Assembly (NCBI GenBank): GCA_030622125.1
Contig: JAUXGM010000118.1
Location: forward strand, 1-6,856
DNA length: 6,856 bases
Source: a bacterium
GTDB lineage: Bacteria; AUK180
Reading direction: 5' to 3'
The notes under the pieces are model-generated. The model was not told the origin of the DNA. It did no database searches and saw only the letters and a list, made by a program, of their open reading frames with translations. Both the position numbers and the translations under genes were made by a program. Each line of letters opens with the position of its first letter. Within the stretch, counting starts at the first letter, position 1. Below, in pieces: positions 453 to 6,675 of this stretch.

Positions 453-2285
453 ATGGATGAAAACGATTCTCTAAGAAATGTTATTTTTAGTTTGATAGAG
501 AAGAAAATATTTACGAATATCGATCTTGGACTTCCCTTTTATATTTTTATTATGGATGTAAACGGGAATGAATTTATACCCATTCAGTATAAAGAGTGTA
601 GTGAAGCATTGAGCTCGGTTAAATATGAGAAATGTACGACATTTTGGAAAAAACAAATTGAATTTGCCAGGATGCTTGATGATGTTGTGTTTTCTAAATG
701 TTACGGTGGCTTTGGAACAATGCTTATCCCTATCAAAATAAATAATAAATTAGTAGGTATCATTGGGGGATGTATTCCCAAACAAGATATTCCAAAGCGG
801 GCGATCGAGAAGTCCATCGCTCTTTTCAAAGGAATATCTCGCATTATAGAACTTATGGGGAATCGCGATTTTTTTTCTAATAAAATGATAAACCATTTAT
901 CTACTTTTATTCAGGAAGTACATAAAGGATATTCAATTGAAGATCCGGAAAGTATCTTTTCCTCCCCTGTCAAAACAGTACAGAAGATATTAGTGGAATT
1001 TACTGCACTCCTACAAAATGTACGTACCTATCTTTTTTTAGGGACTAACGAAAAAAACAAGTTTCTTTTTATTACATCCGATACTTTTAAGGTCATTACC
1101 GGATCGGATGGAATTAACTATTTTTTAAATGGAATAAGGACGGGGGATACCATTGAAGCTTCGAATCCACTTTTTAATATTTTCAACACAGGTGGAAGCT
1201 TGTATCCTATTGTAGCACAAGGGAATAATATTGGTTATTTTTTCATTGAAAAGAACGAAGCGGTAGAAAAAACCGATATTATAAAAAAATATCTTGAACT
1301 TCTACTTTTAACTTTTTCATCAATATATTCTAACTCTCTACTCTTTGATAAGATAAATAAAAGGGGAAAACAGATATACGACCAGGAAATTATAAATTTT
1401 TATAAGCTTGAAAAACTTGTTTATTACGAGCAATTTTTATTTCAAGATAGGATAAAGAAGAATATAGATAACCTGCTTGGCGAAAATTATACCATATATA
1501 TTAAAGACAATATTGATGAACGAGATTTTGTTTGCCGACTCTATCTCTCTTCTAATGAAAATAGGGAAACATATAAAAAAATAGATCAATTGAAAAAGAA
1601 TAAAAAATATAGAGAATACAATGAGATACTTTTTGTAAACTCGGAAAAAGAATTAAATAATAAAACCCTTGACATTCTTTATGACCTCGTTTTTTCGGAT
1701 GTAATCTTTGAAAACAGCAAAAATATTTATCATTCCTACATCTATACGATACTCAACGGGATGGAATTTAAGGATCCCTTTAAAACAGGTAAATATAATC
1801 GTATAATCAGTACGGCGGAACTAATTGCCGGAAGTATAAATTTGACAAATGAAGAGATCGAAAAAATGCGGTTTGCGATCTACTTTATGGACATTGGAAT
1901 GATCGGTGTTTCCGATAGCATTCTCGAAAGTAAAGAAAAGATATCTAAAAGCGACCTAAACAAAATTAAACGACATTCTCTTATTTCGAAATCGTTATTA
2001 GAGGATTTCCCATACTTTAATGAGGAAGTAATTAAAATTATTGAATCGCATCACGAAAATTGGGATGGAAGTGGTTCCCCGAATGGATTAAAAGGAAAGG
2101 CAATTCCTCTACTTTCAAGGATCATTCGCATTGCCGAAACTTATGTTTCTTTAACACACAACAGAAAATTTAGAAAAGCGATGGATAAAACCGTTGCACT
2201 GACGGTCATAAAAAAAGAAAGCGGTGAATTATTTGACCCGGAATTGGCAAAAAAATTTATTGAATTGATAGAAAATGAATCTTGA
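453..2285 (+). CDS. PocR-GAF-like sensor with degenerate HD-GYP domain
   Basis: This 610-residue protein has no signal peptide or membrane segment and is likely a cytosolic signal sensor. Residues ~10-130 resemble a PocR-type ligand-binding domain, with cysteines 49, 61, 83 and 107 and a 'CYGGF...PI...VGIIGG' stretch. Residues ~170-300 look GAF-like ('YPIVAQGNNIGYFFIEK'). Residues ~305-420 are unassigned. Residues ~425-605 form an HD-GYP domain, the family that hydrolyses cyclic di-GMP. Retained residues include H508, H533, H534, E535, D538, the 'DGSG' and the C-terminal 'FDP'. The conserved His of 'TGHS' is Lys447, the HD pair is Met479-Asp480, the following Lys is Met483, GYP is Gly-Ser-Pro (541-543), and the 'vaD' Asp is Glu562. 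Hydrolysis is therefore doubtful and a binding or relay role more likely. The ATG lies immediately after a -10 box without a ribosome site, and the PocR-like domain begins near residue 10, which supports this start. The end overlaps the next gene by 11 bases, so both are probably one operon. Confidence 0.85.
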   Translation: MDENDSLRNVIFSLIEKKIFTNIDLGLPFYIFIMDVNGNEFIPIQYKECSEALSSVKYEKCTTFWKKQIEFARMLDDVVFSKCYGGFGTMLIPIKINNKLVGIIGGCIPKQDIPKRAIEKSIALFKGISRIIELMGNRDFFSNKMINHLSTFIQEVHKGYSIEDPESIFSSPVKTVQKILVEFTALLQNVRTYLFLGTNEKNKFLFITSDTFKVITGSDGINYFLNGIRTGDTIEASNPLFNIFNTGGSLYPIVAQGNNIGYFFIEKNEAVEKTDIIKKYLELLLLTFSSIYSNSLLFDKINKRGKQIYDQEIINFYKLEKLVYYEQFLFQDRIKKNIDNLLGENYTIYIKDNIDERDFVCRLYLSSNENRETYKKIDQLKKNKKYREYNEILFVNSEKELNNKTLDILYDLVFSDVIFENSKNIYHSYIYTILNGMEFKDPFKTGKYNRIISTAELIAGSINLTNEEIEKMRFAIYFMDIGMIGVSDSILESKEKISKSDLNKIKRHSLISKSLLEDFPYFNEEVIKIIESHHENWDGSGSPNGLKGKAIPLLSRIIRIAETYVSLTHNRKFRKAMDKTVALTVIKKESGELFDPELAKKFIELIENES

Positions 2286-3975
2286 ACCGCTTTTTTCTTT
2301 TTTTATTGGATTGGCAGCGTTTATGACCATCAGTTACCTTTCTTTACAATTAAATAAAAAGGTAAAAAAAAATTGGAATGAACGGATTAGAAATCTTTTT
2401 CACAAGGGTTTATTTTTATTTTCATTTATTGCAGCTTTTTTTGTCTTAAAAATATTCGGTGTCGAATTATCTTACTGGACAATAATTATCGGATGGGGCA
2501 TATTTAATTTTATTATTTCATACACAAAAATGAAAAAATGGATAAGATTGCTTCTCTATACACTTTCCTTTCTGATAATATGGAGATTTTCCGGACTCAA
2601 GATAACATATATCAAAAATGATCAACTTTTTACTCTCAGTCCCATTATATCGGTCTTTTATTTTCTTGTGGTTACATATCTTTTTTCTTACCTAAGTGAT
2701 CTTAAAGGTTTTGCAAACGGGATTTTTTTTATCCTTACATTATCAATATTTATTGGAGTCAAATTTTTTGCTCGGGTTGGAATTGAGGAGCTTGATCTTA
2801 TCGCTTTTTTAATTGCAATTTCATTCGGTATATTTATATTTGAACTTGCAATACCTCACTATAAAATTGAAAGGGCAGAAGGTAGATTTTATGGTTTCCT
2901 GATCGCTCTTTTTTCCGTTTACTCAAATACAAACGCTCTTTTTTTTGAAACTATCCTCCTGCCGCTTTTTGTTCTTTTCGGACTTATTTTAATTTATCTT
3001 TTATCTTTTTATCCGAATTTTAAGAAAGGAAGAAAGAAAGATTATATAATTCAGTATCCTAAATATGATATATTCATATTTGTTTATCTTGTGCTTTTTA
3101 GTGTCTGCCTTATTGGAATATTTTTTAAGGAGATCGGAAGTTCACATTTAATAACCATCTTATCGGTTATTGTTTTTTTGGTTCTTGAATTCTATTTTTT
3201 TCTACAATTTTTGGAAAAGAAAAAAAATCCCGTAAAAAAGGACTTAAAAAAAATTGATCTTTTTGGTATCAAGGTCAATAATAATACATTTAATGAAACC
3301 GCTGAATTAATAGAAAATGCGATTCTCAATGAAAAAAAATTATTTATTGTAACCTTAAATCCTGTTATGGTAATGAACAGTTTTGAAAATAAAAATCTAT
3401 TAAGTGCTTATCGTAATGCGGACCTGATACTTCCCGATGGAATTGGAATTGTCTGGGCTTCATATTTCCTGGGAACTCCCTTAAAACAACGGGTAACCGG
3501 AATAGAGATCGCTGCAAACATATTAAATAATCCCGTCAAACCGAATATGAAGGTTCTACTTTTCGGTGCAAAAAAAGGTATTGCAAAGCGAATTCAAAAA
3601 GAGTTCATACAGAAATACCCTGCTCTTGATATTGAAATATTGGATGGTTATAGTAATTATAGAGAAAGGGAAAACTTGCGGATAAGGGTAAGGAATAATT
3701 CTTATGATCTTATCCTTGTTGCTCTCGGATCACCTGCACAGGAATTATGGATAAACAAGGAATACAATAACAAATTTACGGAAAAAGGGATCTTTATCGG
3801 CGTCGGCGGGAGTTTTGATGTTCTATCGGGATTAAAAAAACGGGTTGCGGACAAATGGAAAAAAAAAGGATTAGAATGGTTCTTTAGAATAATTTCAGAA
3901 CCACAAAAACGATTAAATCAAATATTTCACCTTTTCAATTTTGCTCTCAAGGTTTTTATCGAACGACTGGAGTAA
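2275..3975 (+). CDS. WecA/TagO-like membrane domain fused to GT26 glycosyltransferase
   Basis: The 566-residue protein has about 11 membrane segments (roughly 5-25, 44-62, 66-84, 89-107, 121-140, 145-165, 174-195, 204-220, 224-246, 266-284, 290-312) and a cytosolic WecG/TagA/CpsF (GT26) domain at ~325-566. GT26 enzymes transfer a sugar onto undecaprenyl-diphosphate-linked sugar. Their hallmarks are present: T360 in 'VTLNP', D388 in 'LPDGIG', 'QRVTG' (405-409), 'GSPAQE' (485-490), 'GVGGSFD' (509-515) and the C-terminal 'LEWFFR..SEP' appendage. The membrane part follows the WecA/TagO/MraY order: 'SYLSDLKGFANG' (138-149) aligns with the family NLIDGLDGLAAG, and 'KIERAEGR' (197-204) with KIFMGDTGS. 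The catalytic aspartates are replaced (Ser141, Lys144, Glu202), as is the DDxxD region (Ser82-Tyr83), so it is probably a pseudoenzyme. The ATG is the first possible start, because TAG lies one codon upstream. There is no good ribosome site, so translation is probably coupled to the upstream gene. Confidence 0.88.
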   Translation: MNLEPLFSFFIGLAAFMTISYLSLQLNKKVKKNWNERIRNLFHKGLFLFSFIAAFFVLKIFGVELSYWTIIIGWGIFNFIISYTKMKKWIRLLLYTLSFLIIWRFSGLKITYIKNDQLFTLSPIISVFYFLVVTYLFSYLSDLKGFANGIFFILTLSIFIGVKFFARVGIEELDLIAFLIAISFGIFIFELAIPHYKIERAEGRFYGFLIALFSVYSNTNALFFETILLPLFVLFGLILIYLLSFYPNFKKGRKKDYIIQYPKYDIFIFVYLVLFSVCLIGIFFKEIGSSHLITILSVIVFLVLEFYFFLQFLEKKKNPVKKDLKKIDLFGIKVNNNTFNETAELIENAILNEKKLFIVTLNPVMVMNSFENKNLLSAYRNADLILPDGIGIVWASYFLGTPLKQRVTGIEIAANILNNPVKPNMKVLLFGAKKGIAKRIQKEFIQKYPALDIEILDGYSNYRERENLRIRVRNNSYDLILVALGSPAQELWINKEYNNKFTEKGIFIGVGGSFDVLSGLKKRVADKWKKKGLEWFFRIISEPQKRLNQIFHLFNFALKVFIERLE

Positions 3976-4030: not shown

Positions 4031-6292
4031 TTATCTGATTACGGCAATTTTACCTTTTTTTTGCTCACCATTTTCATTTGTAATTACAAATATGTAAACC
4101 CCGGAAACTATTTTTTTATTATTATCATTTATCACCTGCCATTCATATTCAGGTAGATCACTTTTTGCTTCAAAAACAAGCTCGCCTCTTATACTGTAAA
4201 CCCTTATGGTGCAATTTATGGTTAAATTATTAAATTTAACACTATCCCCCTTACAAGGATTAGGATAAGCAGTTGAATTATCAAGGTTTTTATGCCAAGT
4301 TTTTTCACCGATAAAATCTTGTGTTTCATTACCATCTAAATCCGGAAAAGTGGCATTTTCAGGCGTAAATTTATAATGTTTTTTAGAAGGAGTTATGATA
4401 TAAGTTACACCGTCACTTAAATTATTAAATGAATAATTTCCATTTTTATCTGTAATGGTAGATGCTGTTGAATCACCTGAAAGACTAACAGTAACCTTAT
4501 AAATAGGCTTTGTCATATCAGTTATAGTACCGCTAATACTCCAGATTTTTAATCTACCGACAAAATCCGCATTGTAAACATTACTGCTTAAATCACTATA
4601 AGTTCTTTTTACCGGAATAAATGAATAATGCTCTTTTGAGGGTTCTATAACATAAGTAGAACCTGCAATCAGATCACTAAATACATATTCACCGGATGAA
4701 TTTGTAGTGGTGGTATCATTATTTGTTCCATCTTTTATAAGTGATACAATTACACCTTCCAAGGGATTACCATCTTCGGTTATGTTACCTGTAATAAAGC
4801 ATGTATTAAGATTACCTAAATAATTTGCTTCTTCATCTTTACTCAGGTTCGTATAAGTCCATTCAACAGGAATAAATGTCCAATGATTTTTTATAGGTTT
4901 AACCACATAATTTGAACCGGCATCCAAATCGTAAAATGAATAATTACCGGAGGTATCTGAAGTGGTTGAAATTAAAGGTGTCCCATCTTTTATAATTGAA
5001 ACCGTAACATCCGGAATCGGATTAACACCATCTGTAATGGTTCCACTGATATTATATACCACTTTATATTTCCTTGTCCAGATATTAATATCCTGTCCTA
5101 AATCGCTTCTATTTTCAATTCCTGTAACATATACATTACCGGAACTATCTACAGCGATACCATAACCAACATCATCACCATTATTAGGCGAATTATAAGT
5201 TCTTGTCCATATCTCATTACCATTAGTGTCATATTTACTCGTCCAGATATTATAGTATTGTCCTAAATCTCCTCTGTCTTCATATCCGATAACATATACA
5301 TTACCGGCACTATCTACAGCGATACCATTACCACAATCAAAACTATTATTAGGCGAATTGTAAGTAGATGTCCAGATCTCATAACCATTAGAGTCATATT
5401 TCCTTGTCCAGATATTCCAACCCTGTCCCAAATCACTCCTAAGTTCAGTTCCTGTAACATATACATTGCCCATATTATCTACCGCGATATCTTCTCCATC
5501 ATCTTCACTACTATTAGGCGAATTATATGTAGAAGTCCATATCTCAAATCCATTAGAGTCATATTTTCTTGTCCAGATATTCCAACTCTGTCCCAAATCA
5601 CTCCTATTTTCAGTTCCTATAACATATACATTACCGGAACTATCTACTGCAATACCCTTACCATATTCATCACCATTATTAGGAGAATTATATGTAGAAG
5701 TCCAAATCTCAAAACCATTAGAGTCATATTTCCTTGTCCAGATATTATTCCTCTGTCCCAAATCGTCTCTATATTCATCTCCGATAACATATACATTACC
5801 GGCATTATCTACGGCAATACCATGACCAAAATCACTACCATTATTAGGCGAATTATATGTAGAAGTCCATATCTCAAATCCATTAGTGTCATATTTCCTT
5901 GTCCAGATATTCCAACCCTGTCCTAAATCATTTCTGCCTTCAGCTCCTGTAACATATACATTACCGGAACTATCTACAGCGATACCATAACCAACATCAT
6001 CACCATTATTAGGAGAATTATATGTAGAAGTCCAAATCTCAAAACCATTAGAGTCATATTTCCTTGTCCAGATATTAAAACTCTGTCCCAAATCGTCTCT
6101 ATATTCATATCCGATAACATATACATTACCGGCGCTATCTACTGCAATACCACGACCTTCATCCCAACTATTATTAGGTGAATTATACGTAGATGTCCAA
6201 TCAACTACCACACTATCGCCAAAAACCAAATTAGATAGAAAAAACAAAAGCCCAATAAAAACAAATAGACACTTAAAATAATTTCTTCTCAT
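4031..6292 (-). CDS. Secreted SBBP beta-propeller protein with C-terminal sorting domain
   Basis: A 753-residue exported protein. Residues 1-~26 are a signal peptide (MRRNYFK, hydrophobic core, 'LVFG' before the mature part). Residues ~32-409 are seven repeats of 55 residues, the last cut short at ~48. Each carries 'WTSTYNSPNN', 'GIAVD..GNVYV.G' and 'DLGQ..NIWTRKY', matching SBBP repeats, so a seven-bladed propeller is inferred. Residues ~412-494, 498-579 and 584-663 are three carboxypeptidase-regulatory-like beta domains ('SGTITD...G.YSF..L..G..Y...P'). Residues ~670-753 resemble T9SS type A sorting or FlgD-like domains ('AYPNPC', 'IRVYSIRGELV', 'SGVYIF', 'GKIAVIR'). The role is probably adhesive or surface-structural; no catalytic motif is seen. 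The ATG at 6292 is preferred over GTG at 6295 because AGGAGG lies 5 bases from the ATG but only 2 from the GTG. The only strong promoter upstream is at 6741-6769. Confidence 0.9.
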   Translation of the reverse strand: MRRNYFKCLFVFIGLLFFLSNLVFGDSVVVDWTSTYNSPNNSWDEGRGIAVDSAGNVYVIGYEYRDDLGQSFNIWTRKYDSNGFEIWTSTYNSPNNGDDVGYGIAVDSSGNVYVTGAEGRNDLGQGWNIWTRKYDTNGFEIWTSTYNSPNNGSDFGHGIAVDNAGNVYVIGDEYRDDLGQRNNIWTRKYDSNGFEIWTSTYNSPNNGDEYGKGIAVDSSGNVYVIGTENRSDLGQSWNIWTRKYDSNGFEIWTSTYNSPNSSEDDGEDIAVDNMGNVYVTGTELRSDLGQGWNIWTRKYDSNGYEIWTSTYNSPNNSFDCGNGIAVDSAGNVYVIGYEDRGDLGQYYNIWTSKYDTNGNEIWTRTYNSPNNGDDVGYGIAVDSSGNVYVTGIENRSDLGQDINIWTRKYKVVYNISGTITDGVNPIPDVTVSIIKDGTPLISTTSDTSGNYSFYDLDAGSNYVVKPIKNHWTFIPVEWTYTNLSKDEEANYLGNLNTCFITGNITEDGNPLEGVIVSLIKDGTNNDTTTTNSSGEYVFSDLIAGSTYVIEPSKEHYSFIPVKRTYSDLSSNVYNADFVGRLKIWSISGTITDMTKPIYKVTVSLSGDSTASTITDKNGNYSFNNLSDGVTYIITPSKKHYKFTPENATFPDLDGNETQDFIGEKTWHKNLDNSTAYPNPCKGDSVKFNNLTINCTIRVYSIRGELVFEAKSDLPEYEWQVINDNNKKIVSGVYIFVITNENGEQKKGKIAVIR
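5066..6199 (-). repeat. Seven 165-bp tandem coding repeats (propeller blades)
   Basis: The DNA repeats in exact 165-base register, starting at 6199 and stepping down by 165, with no indels between units. Conserved blocks encode 'WTSTYNSPNN' and 'NIWTRKYDSNG'; variable positions follow SPNN and DLGQ. Units 2 and 7 share a 69-base identical stretch (5945-6013 and 5120-5188), which points to recent sequence exchange within the gene. Confidence 0.9.
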
Positions 6293-6297
6293 CACAA

Positions 6298-6332: not shown

Positions 6333-6675
6333 TTAAAGACTTCTATAAAAATTCCATAACAAATTACCAACTTCCTGTCTTAAATTTTGAAGTTTCTTAT
6401 GAATTTTCTCGTTAAAATATTCCAATCTTAATGAAAAATCTATTAAATATTCTGTTTCTGCAAGTGAGCCTAATGCGATATTTACAAATTGTCTTAACTC
6501 TTTTTTCCCTTGTCTGCCACACCCTTCTACAATATTTGTAGGAACTGATAAAGCTGCTTTTCGTTTTCCACCTTTAACCTTTGAACCTTTCAACTTTTGA
6601 ACCTTTTTTTGTTTTCCATTATTCATCTGCTTTTTGCCATACAATTAATTTCTTATATCCTTTCTTTTCTTTCAT
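6333..6675 (-). pseudogene. Broken four-helix-bundle (23S rRNA IVS-family) gene
   Basis: From the ATG at 6675 the minus strand encodes MKEKKGYKKLIVWQKADE and then TAA (6619-6621). This matches the start of the family, whose first helix normally reads like 'f.dLevwqkA.el'. The remainder continues in another frame, from 'RKAALSVPTNIVEGCGR' to 'WNFYRSL' and TAA at 6333-6335, matching helix 2 onwards. Roughly 25 residues between the halves (end of helix 1 to start of helix 2) are missing and replaced by low-complexity repeat DNA. The downstream part forms an open frame of 97-103 codons from a TTG (6644) or ATG (6626), with a Lys-rich translated-repeat N-terminus and no good ribosome site. It is probably not functional. 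Intact relatives are small proteins of about 120 residues, found as inserts in 23S rRNA genes or free-standing, with uncertain function. The residual homology is clear; non-function is inferred. Confidence 0.8.
6563..6618 (-). repeat. Low-complexity insert flanked by 8-bp direct repeats
   Basis: The 8-mer GTTTTCCA occurs at 6563-6570 and 6611-6618. The 40 bases between them read, on the minus strand, as a GGTTCAAAAGTTGAAAGGTTCAAAGG-type tract (given here without its ends). The arrangement resembles an insertion with target duplication. Removing one copy plus the insert (48 bases) does not restore the gene, so a deletion must also have occurred. Confidence 0.55.

Follow-up and report, generated by a model that had tools for sequence, protein, structure and literature searches.

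WecA and MraY are membrane enzymes that start the synthesis of many bacterial surface sugars. In known pathways, WecA or TagO makes a lipid-linked sugar that WecG or TagA then extends, and WecB makes UDP-ManNAc. How lipid-linked sugars pass between successive membrane enzymes is not settled. MraY, WecA and TagO have attracted study as drug targets. The first of these steps is carried out by the PNPT superfamily (WecA/TagO, MraY, DPAGT1; PF00953) and the second by GT26 enzymes (WecG/TagA/TarA/CpsF; PF03808; 7mpk, 5wb4). For TagA, the roles of Thr37, Asp65, Arg214 and Arg221 have been described, and activity requires that the protein associate with the membrane via its appendage (PMC6493773).

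Here we describe a gene in which the fold of the first step, without its catalytic residues, is joined in frame to a putative enzyme of the second. The gene occupies positions 2275..3975 of the window, by which we mean the whole 6,856-nucleotide stretch of bacterial DNA analyzed; it and all its features lie on the forward strand. Its open reading frame is intact (ATG at 2275, stop at 3975) and encodes 566 residues, in which a pseudo-PNPT membrane module is followed by a GT26 domain, an architecture shared by 110 further proteins. The main result is that a dead PNPT fold is kept across phyla as one half of a GT26 enzyme. No description of the fusion was found in the literature searched, whose coverage was incomplete. 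A natural fusion of a step-one fold, devoid of catalysis, to a step-two enzyme offers a direct way of testing the hand-off, and the gene is near-universal in the sampled Synergistota, a phylum with cultured members.

An earlier, sequence-only reading of the window had called the N-terminal half WecA/TagO-like. Since this half of the window protein has no Pfam match on its own, the claim needed independent tests, and these bear it out. A profile (A2) made from four family members was run on 386 genomes, where its matches outside the family were mostly WecA-type PNPTs (E 1e-8 to 5e-3 per genome); the exceptions, two near-threshold unrelated matches, were an MscS-like protein and a frame with stops. 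With hhalign, four family sequences matched eight active PNPTs at a probability of 97 (E 8e-11), and 12 fusion N-termini matched active PNPTs at 99.5 (E 7e-23). Against PF00953, two same-class fusions align over nearly the whole model (52-53 bits, E 6e-14, cut-off 27). PDB sequence searches with the N-terminal half gave no matches.

The fold was predicted with AF2 from 82 fusion proteins, with no active PNPT in the alignment; an earlier model from 4 sequences (pLDDT 54) was set aside. Mean pLDDT is 82.8, and pTM is 0.64, so the relative placement of the two halves is uncertain. Residues 1-287 (2275..3135) form 10 helices matching MraY (VIA-align of model residues 1..287: Z 19.5, 272 residues, 4.2 A). 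DPAGT1 is matched at Z 17.9, and the next unrelated fold at Z 8.3 only. Helix order is that of the PNPT superfamily, the helix count up to the end of the MraY match equals that of MraY, and a periplasmic hairpin is common to both. Residues 1-287 have the PNPT (MraY/WecA) fold and descent. A prediction with some other fold had been named beforehand as grounds for abandoning the claim; the fold obtained is PNPT. An unrelated membrane domain in this place is excluded by the profile, by Pfam matches of homologues and by the fold. Unlike the rest of the superfamily, the fusion has lost the catalytic residues and gained an eleventh helix and the GT26 domain.

To describe this loss, we aligned 85 fusions with 11 stand-alone PNPTs and scored nine positions: the Asp pair, four residues of NxxNxxDxxD (both Asn and both Asp), the GDxGS-loop Asp and a pair of His. 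PNPT positions are numbered after L002, an intact PNPT from the window's genome. None of the nine is kept in the window fusion. In its degenerate NxxNxxDxxDG motif (residues 135-149, YLFSYLSDLKGFANG; 2677..2721), N150 is aligned with Y135, N153 with S138, D156 with S141 and D159 with K144, and in its degenerate PxxxFxGDxGS loop (residues 193-207; 2851..2895) the catalytic D213 is replaced by R200. Both His of the HxxH motif (H278 and H281) are lost, and D99/D100 of the first cytoplasmic loop fall within a deletion of about four residues around Ser82-Lys85, so that residues 82-88 (SYTKMKK; 2518..2538) mark the place of the Asp pair. Ser141 and Lys144 had already been read as standing where aspartates are needed, and Ser82-Tyr83 as a DDxxD region without its Asp pair; the alignments agree with both. 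Glu202, which had been taken for a third such site, is actually at the G215 position, two residues away from Arg200, with which the catalytic Asp aligns. Beyond the aspartates named in that reading, both Asn and the His motif are also gone.

The same loss is found in every fusion checked. Among the 85 fusions, 3 proteins keep none of the nine positions, 68 keep one, 13 keep two and 1 keeps three; 26 more fusions from another phylum keep 0-3, and the stand-alone PNPTs keep 8-9. The catalytic set is missing in 111/111 fusions checked, which span four lineages, and present in 11/11 stand-alone PNPTs. Some positions persist: D156 is retained in 78/85, most Synergistota members among them, and Glu stands at D213 in 44/85. 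At the position of the GDxGS-loop Asp, all members of the window's class have Arg or Lys, as do L055 and L067. Two glycines conserved in the PNPT superfamily are likewise conserved in the fusions, G160 in 84/85 and G220 in 81/85. Rescue of catalysis by shifted aspartates, which had been set down in advance as a finding that would count against a dead domain, can be rejected, as no shifted Asp was seen in the alignments. We also sought an active PNPT-GT26 fusion among the searched genomes and found none, the other long GT26 frames being joins to other domains or overlong frames in GC-rich genomes. Judged by alignment, the PNPT half of the fusion lacks the catalytic residues.

The GT26 (WecG/TagA/CpsF) domain and its C-terminal appendage comprise residues 325-566 (3247..3972), of which residues 382-545 match PF03808 (E 1e-43, 149 bits versus a cut-off of 27.4). 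TagA from T. italicus is matched by sequence (E 3e-35), and the AF2 model matches TagA at Z 26.4. The fold and the active-site Thr and Asp are those of GT26 enzymes. In the alignment to TagA, Thr360 (3352..3354) is the equivalent of Thr37 and Asp388 (3436..3438) that of Asp65, the proposed catalytic base, and both are invariant across 82 fusions. Two of the three TagA appendage arginines are also present and conserved, namely Arg538 and Arg546 (3886..3912), the equivalents of Arg214 and Arg221; the third, Arg224, is Gln549 in the window fusion. As first proposed, then, the GT26 half is apparently intact and a putative enzyme. It scores below the cut-off of the TarA equivalog (NF041710; 162 of 350 bits), and no other GT26 was found in the window's genome (96% complete). 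Other GT26 fusions in our survey likewise join the domain in frame to another, with partners that, named by eye, are sugar-transferase-like, GT2-like, CsaB-like or a tandem GT26; unlike the window fusion, none of those read has an inactive PNPT. A tandem example is the 494-residue protein of L041 (1444-2925, reverse strand), which consists of two GT26 domains, and similar 488-residue proteins exist.

The membrane module is predicted to have 11 helices, the last of which (residues 291-316; 3145..3222), past the MraY match in the AF2 secondary structure, would take the chain to the cytoplasm and place the GT26 domain there. The positive-inside count fits this topology: with AF2 helices, Lys and Arg number 22 in the predicted cytoplasmic loops of the window fusion versus 3 in the periplasmic loops, and in 82/82 aligned members more are inside than outside. 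Whereas TagA is peripheral on the membrane (PMC6493773), the GT26 domain of the fusion is tied to this 11-helix module. A comparison of two congeneric species from the window's family gives dN/dS values of 0.024 (residues 1-320) and 0.022 (GT26 half). The dead half is under strong purifying selection and as constrained as the enzyme; on its dN/dS and the intact frame, a broken or decaying gene in the window is rejected.

Homologues with the same fusion had been suggested as a check, and the 111 fusions come from the window's class, a phylum of three genomes, Synergistota and a phylum of 39 genomes; all combine the fusion with absence of the catalytic set. The gene is present in 4/5 genomes of the window's family, in both genomes searched of its sister family and in 3/3 of the three-genome phylum (G021). 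In Synergistota (the phylum of G264), the N-terminal half is matched in 118/120 genomes and 48/48 genera, and the GT26 half follows in the same frame in 75/75 loci read. This set includes Thermanaerovibrio acidaminovorans (PMC3035242), which carries the fusion gene, and Aminobacterium colombiense (PMC3035294). Fusions were confirmed in 28 genomes of the 39-genome phylum, which holds G261 and G124. Because the same fusion occurs in several phyla and its first half is always inactive, the inactive half probably has a conserved noncatalytic job. In the GT26 tree, the window's class is grouped (99/92), as are the Synergistota (97/91); this analysis does not establish that all fusions arose once, nor does it reject it (p-AU 0.149). 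In the PNPT tree one branch divides pseudo from active members (SH-aLRT 83), a weak result that cannot decide the origin because long branches meet.

Other genes appear to supply the reaction that the dead half has lost. Besides MraY and one WecB-type epimerase, the window's genome encodes three WecA-like PNPTs that stand alone, so that enzymes other than the fusion cover step one. Apart from any fusion, PF00953 enzymes and WecB were present in 20/20 genomes searched, 19 of which carry the fusion; the other, G002, has no GT26 at all. In the three-genome phylum, and in both of the Synergistota wec loci read, wecA adjoins wecB. The fusion gene adjoins serS, near recR, in two Synergistota loci read.

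In the window, the fusion gene is overlapped by 11 bp by an upstream gene (453..2285, forward strand) that encodes a PocR/GAF-like sensor region and an HD-GYP domain. The latter looks catalytically degenerate because the histidine of its HD motif is replaced, giving MD in the window's family and ED in the sister family. This gene order is kept in the window's class, with overlapping or abutting genes in five loci (the window, L024, L026, L077 and L078). In L077, from the sister family, a site-2-protease-like gene (Peptidase_M50 and CBS; 2457-3518) lies upstream of the sensor gene, and L078 has a gene that starts like it.

In general terms, we lean toward the view that these proteins, near-universal in Synergistota and known from no fewer than three further lineages, make up a widespread class of PNPT pseudoenzymes that reuse the MraY/WecA fold noncatalytically, to bind a lipid-linked sugar or WecA and so to feed or control the fused GT26 domain. 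As to what the dead half does, the best explanation, to which we give about an even chance, is docking: the protein would be a GT26 glycosyltransferase embedded in the membrane, with a pseudo-PNPT half that receives the lipid-linked sugar made by WecA, perhaps while paired with WecA. A separate active WecA-like enzyme would make polyprenyl-PP-HexNAc, WecB would supply UDP-ManNAc, and the GT26 half would add the second sugar, possibly ManNAc or a derivative (the sugars are guessed from the family). The dead half, using lipid-binding surfaces inherited with the fold, would dock the membrane-bound acceptor and keep it close to the active site of the GT26 domain, and may pair with active WecA as it does so. 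Permanent residence in the membrane would replace the reversible peripheral binding of the TagA type. The dimer interface of MraY binds the carrier lipid C55-P (PMC9046198), and a lipid II site has been proposed there (PMC10914600), which is a precedent for noncatalytic lipid binding by a PNPT fold. The suggestion in the sequence-only reading that the dead half could be a platform presenting substrate is a reasonable hypothesis.

Pairing could also be the principal role. If the pseudo-PNPT half acted chiefly as a partner subunit, a mixed dimer with active WecA would set the GT26 domain beside acceptor synthesis, and lipid binding by the dead half itself would be unneeded. PNPT enzymes such as MraY do dimerize (PMC9046198), and 19/19 fusion-bearing genomes encode, in addition to MraY, one or several separate PF00953 enzymes. 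However, the fusion gene is not adjacent to wecA in any of the four groups of loci read, which counts against the docking reading as well, and we regard a partner subunit as possible but rather unlikely.

Less likely again is that the dead half is merely a membrane anchor, its PNPT origin being the accident of a membrane gene located next to a GT26 gene. A permanent anchor could help, given that TagA needs appendage-mediated membrane association to be active (PMC6493773). Yet one helix would suffice for anchoring, and instead an 11-helix fold is maintained under the low dN/dS given above, its two glycines are nearly invariant and the class recurs in four lineages.

An improbable variant is a regulatory sensor, in which the dead half would bind the lipid-linked product or the carrier and turn the GT26 domain up or down. 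A feedback site for lipid II has been proposed at the MraY dimer interface (PMC10914600), and in the window's class the fusion overlaps the gene with the sensor region and degenerate HD-GYP domain; against this, neither Synergistota nor the three-genome phylum has that gene next to the fusion. It is very improbable that the N-terminal half remains enzymatic by using other residues: the retained D156 and the Glu at D213 favor this, but across families the losses extend to the Asp pair, the second Asp, both Asn and the His pair, the window fusion is altered at every one of the nine positions and no shifted Asp pair was seen.

The remainder of the window holds two genes on the reverse strand. One (4031-6295) encodes seven SBBP beta-propeller repeats, three carboxypeptidase-regulatory-like domains and a type IX secretion C-terminal signal, and the other (6333-6644) encodes a four-helix-bundle protein of the 23S rRNA intervening-sequence family. 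By eye, short AAGTTCAAGGTTCAAAAG-like stretches that resemble each other were noted near the two window ends (about 185-230 and 6580-6605), on opposite strands.
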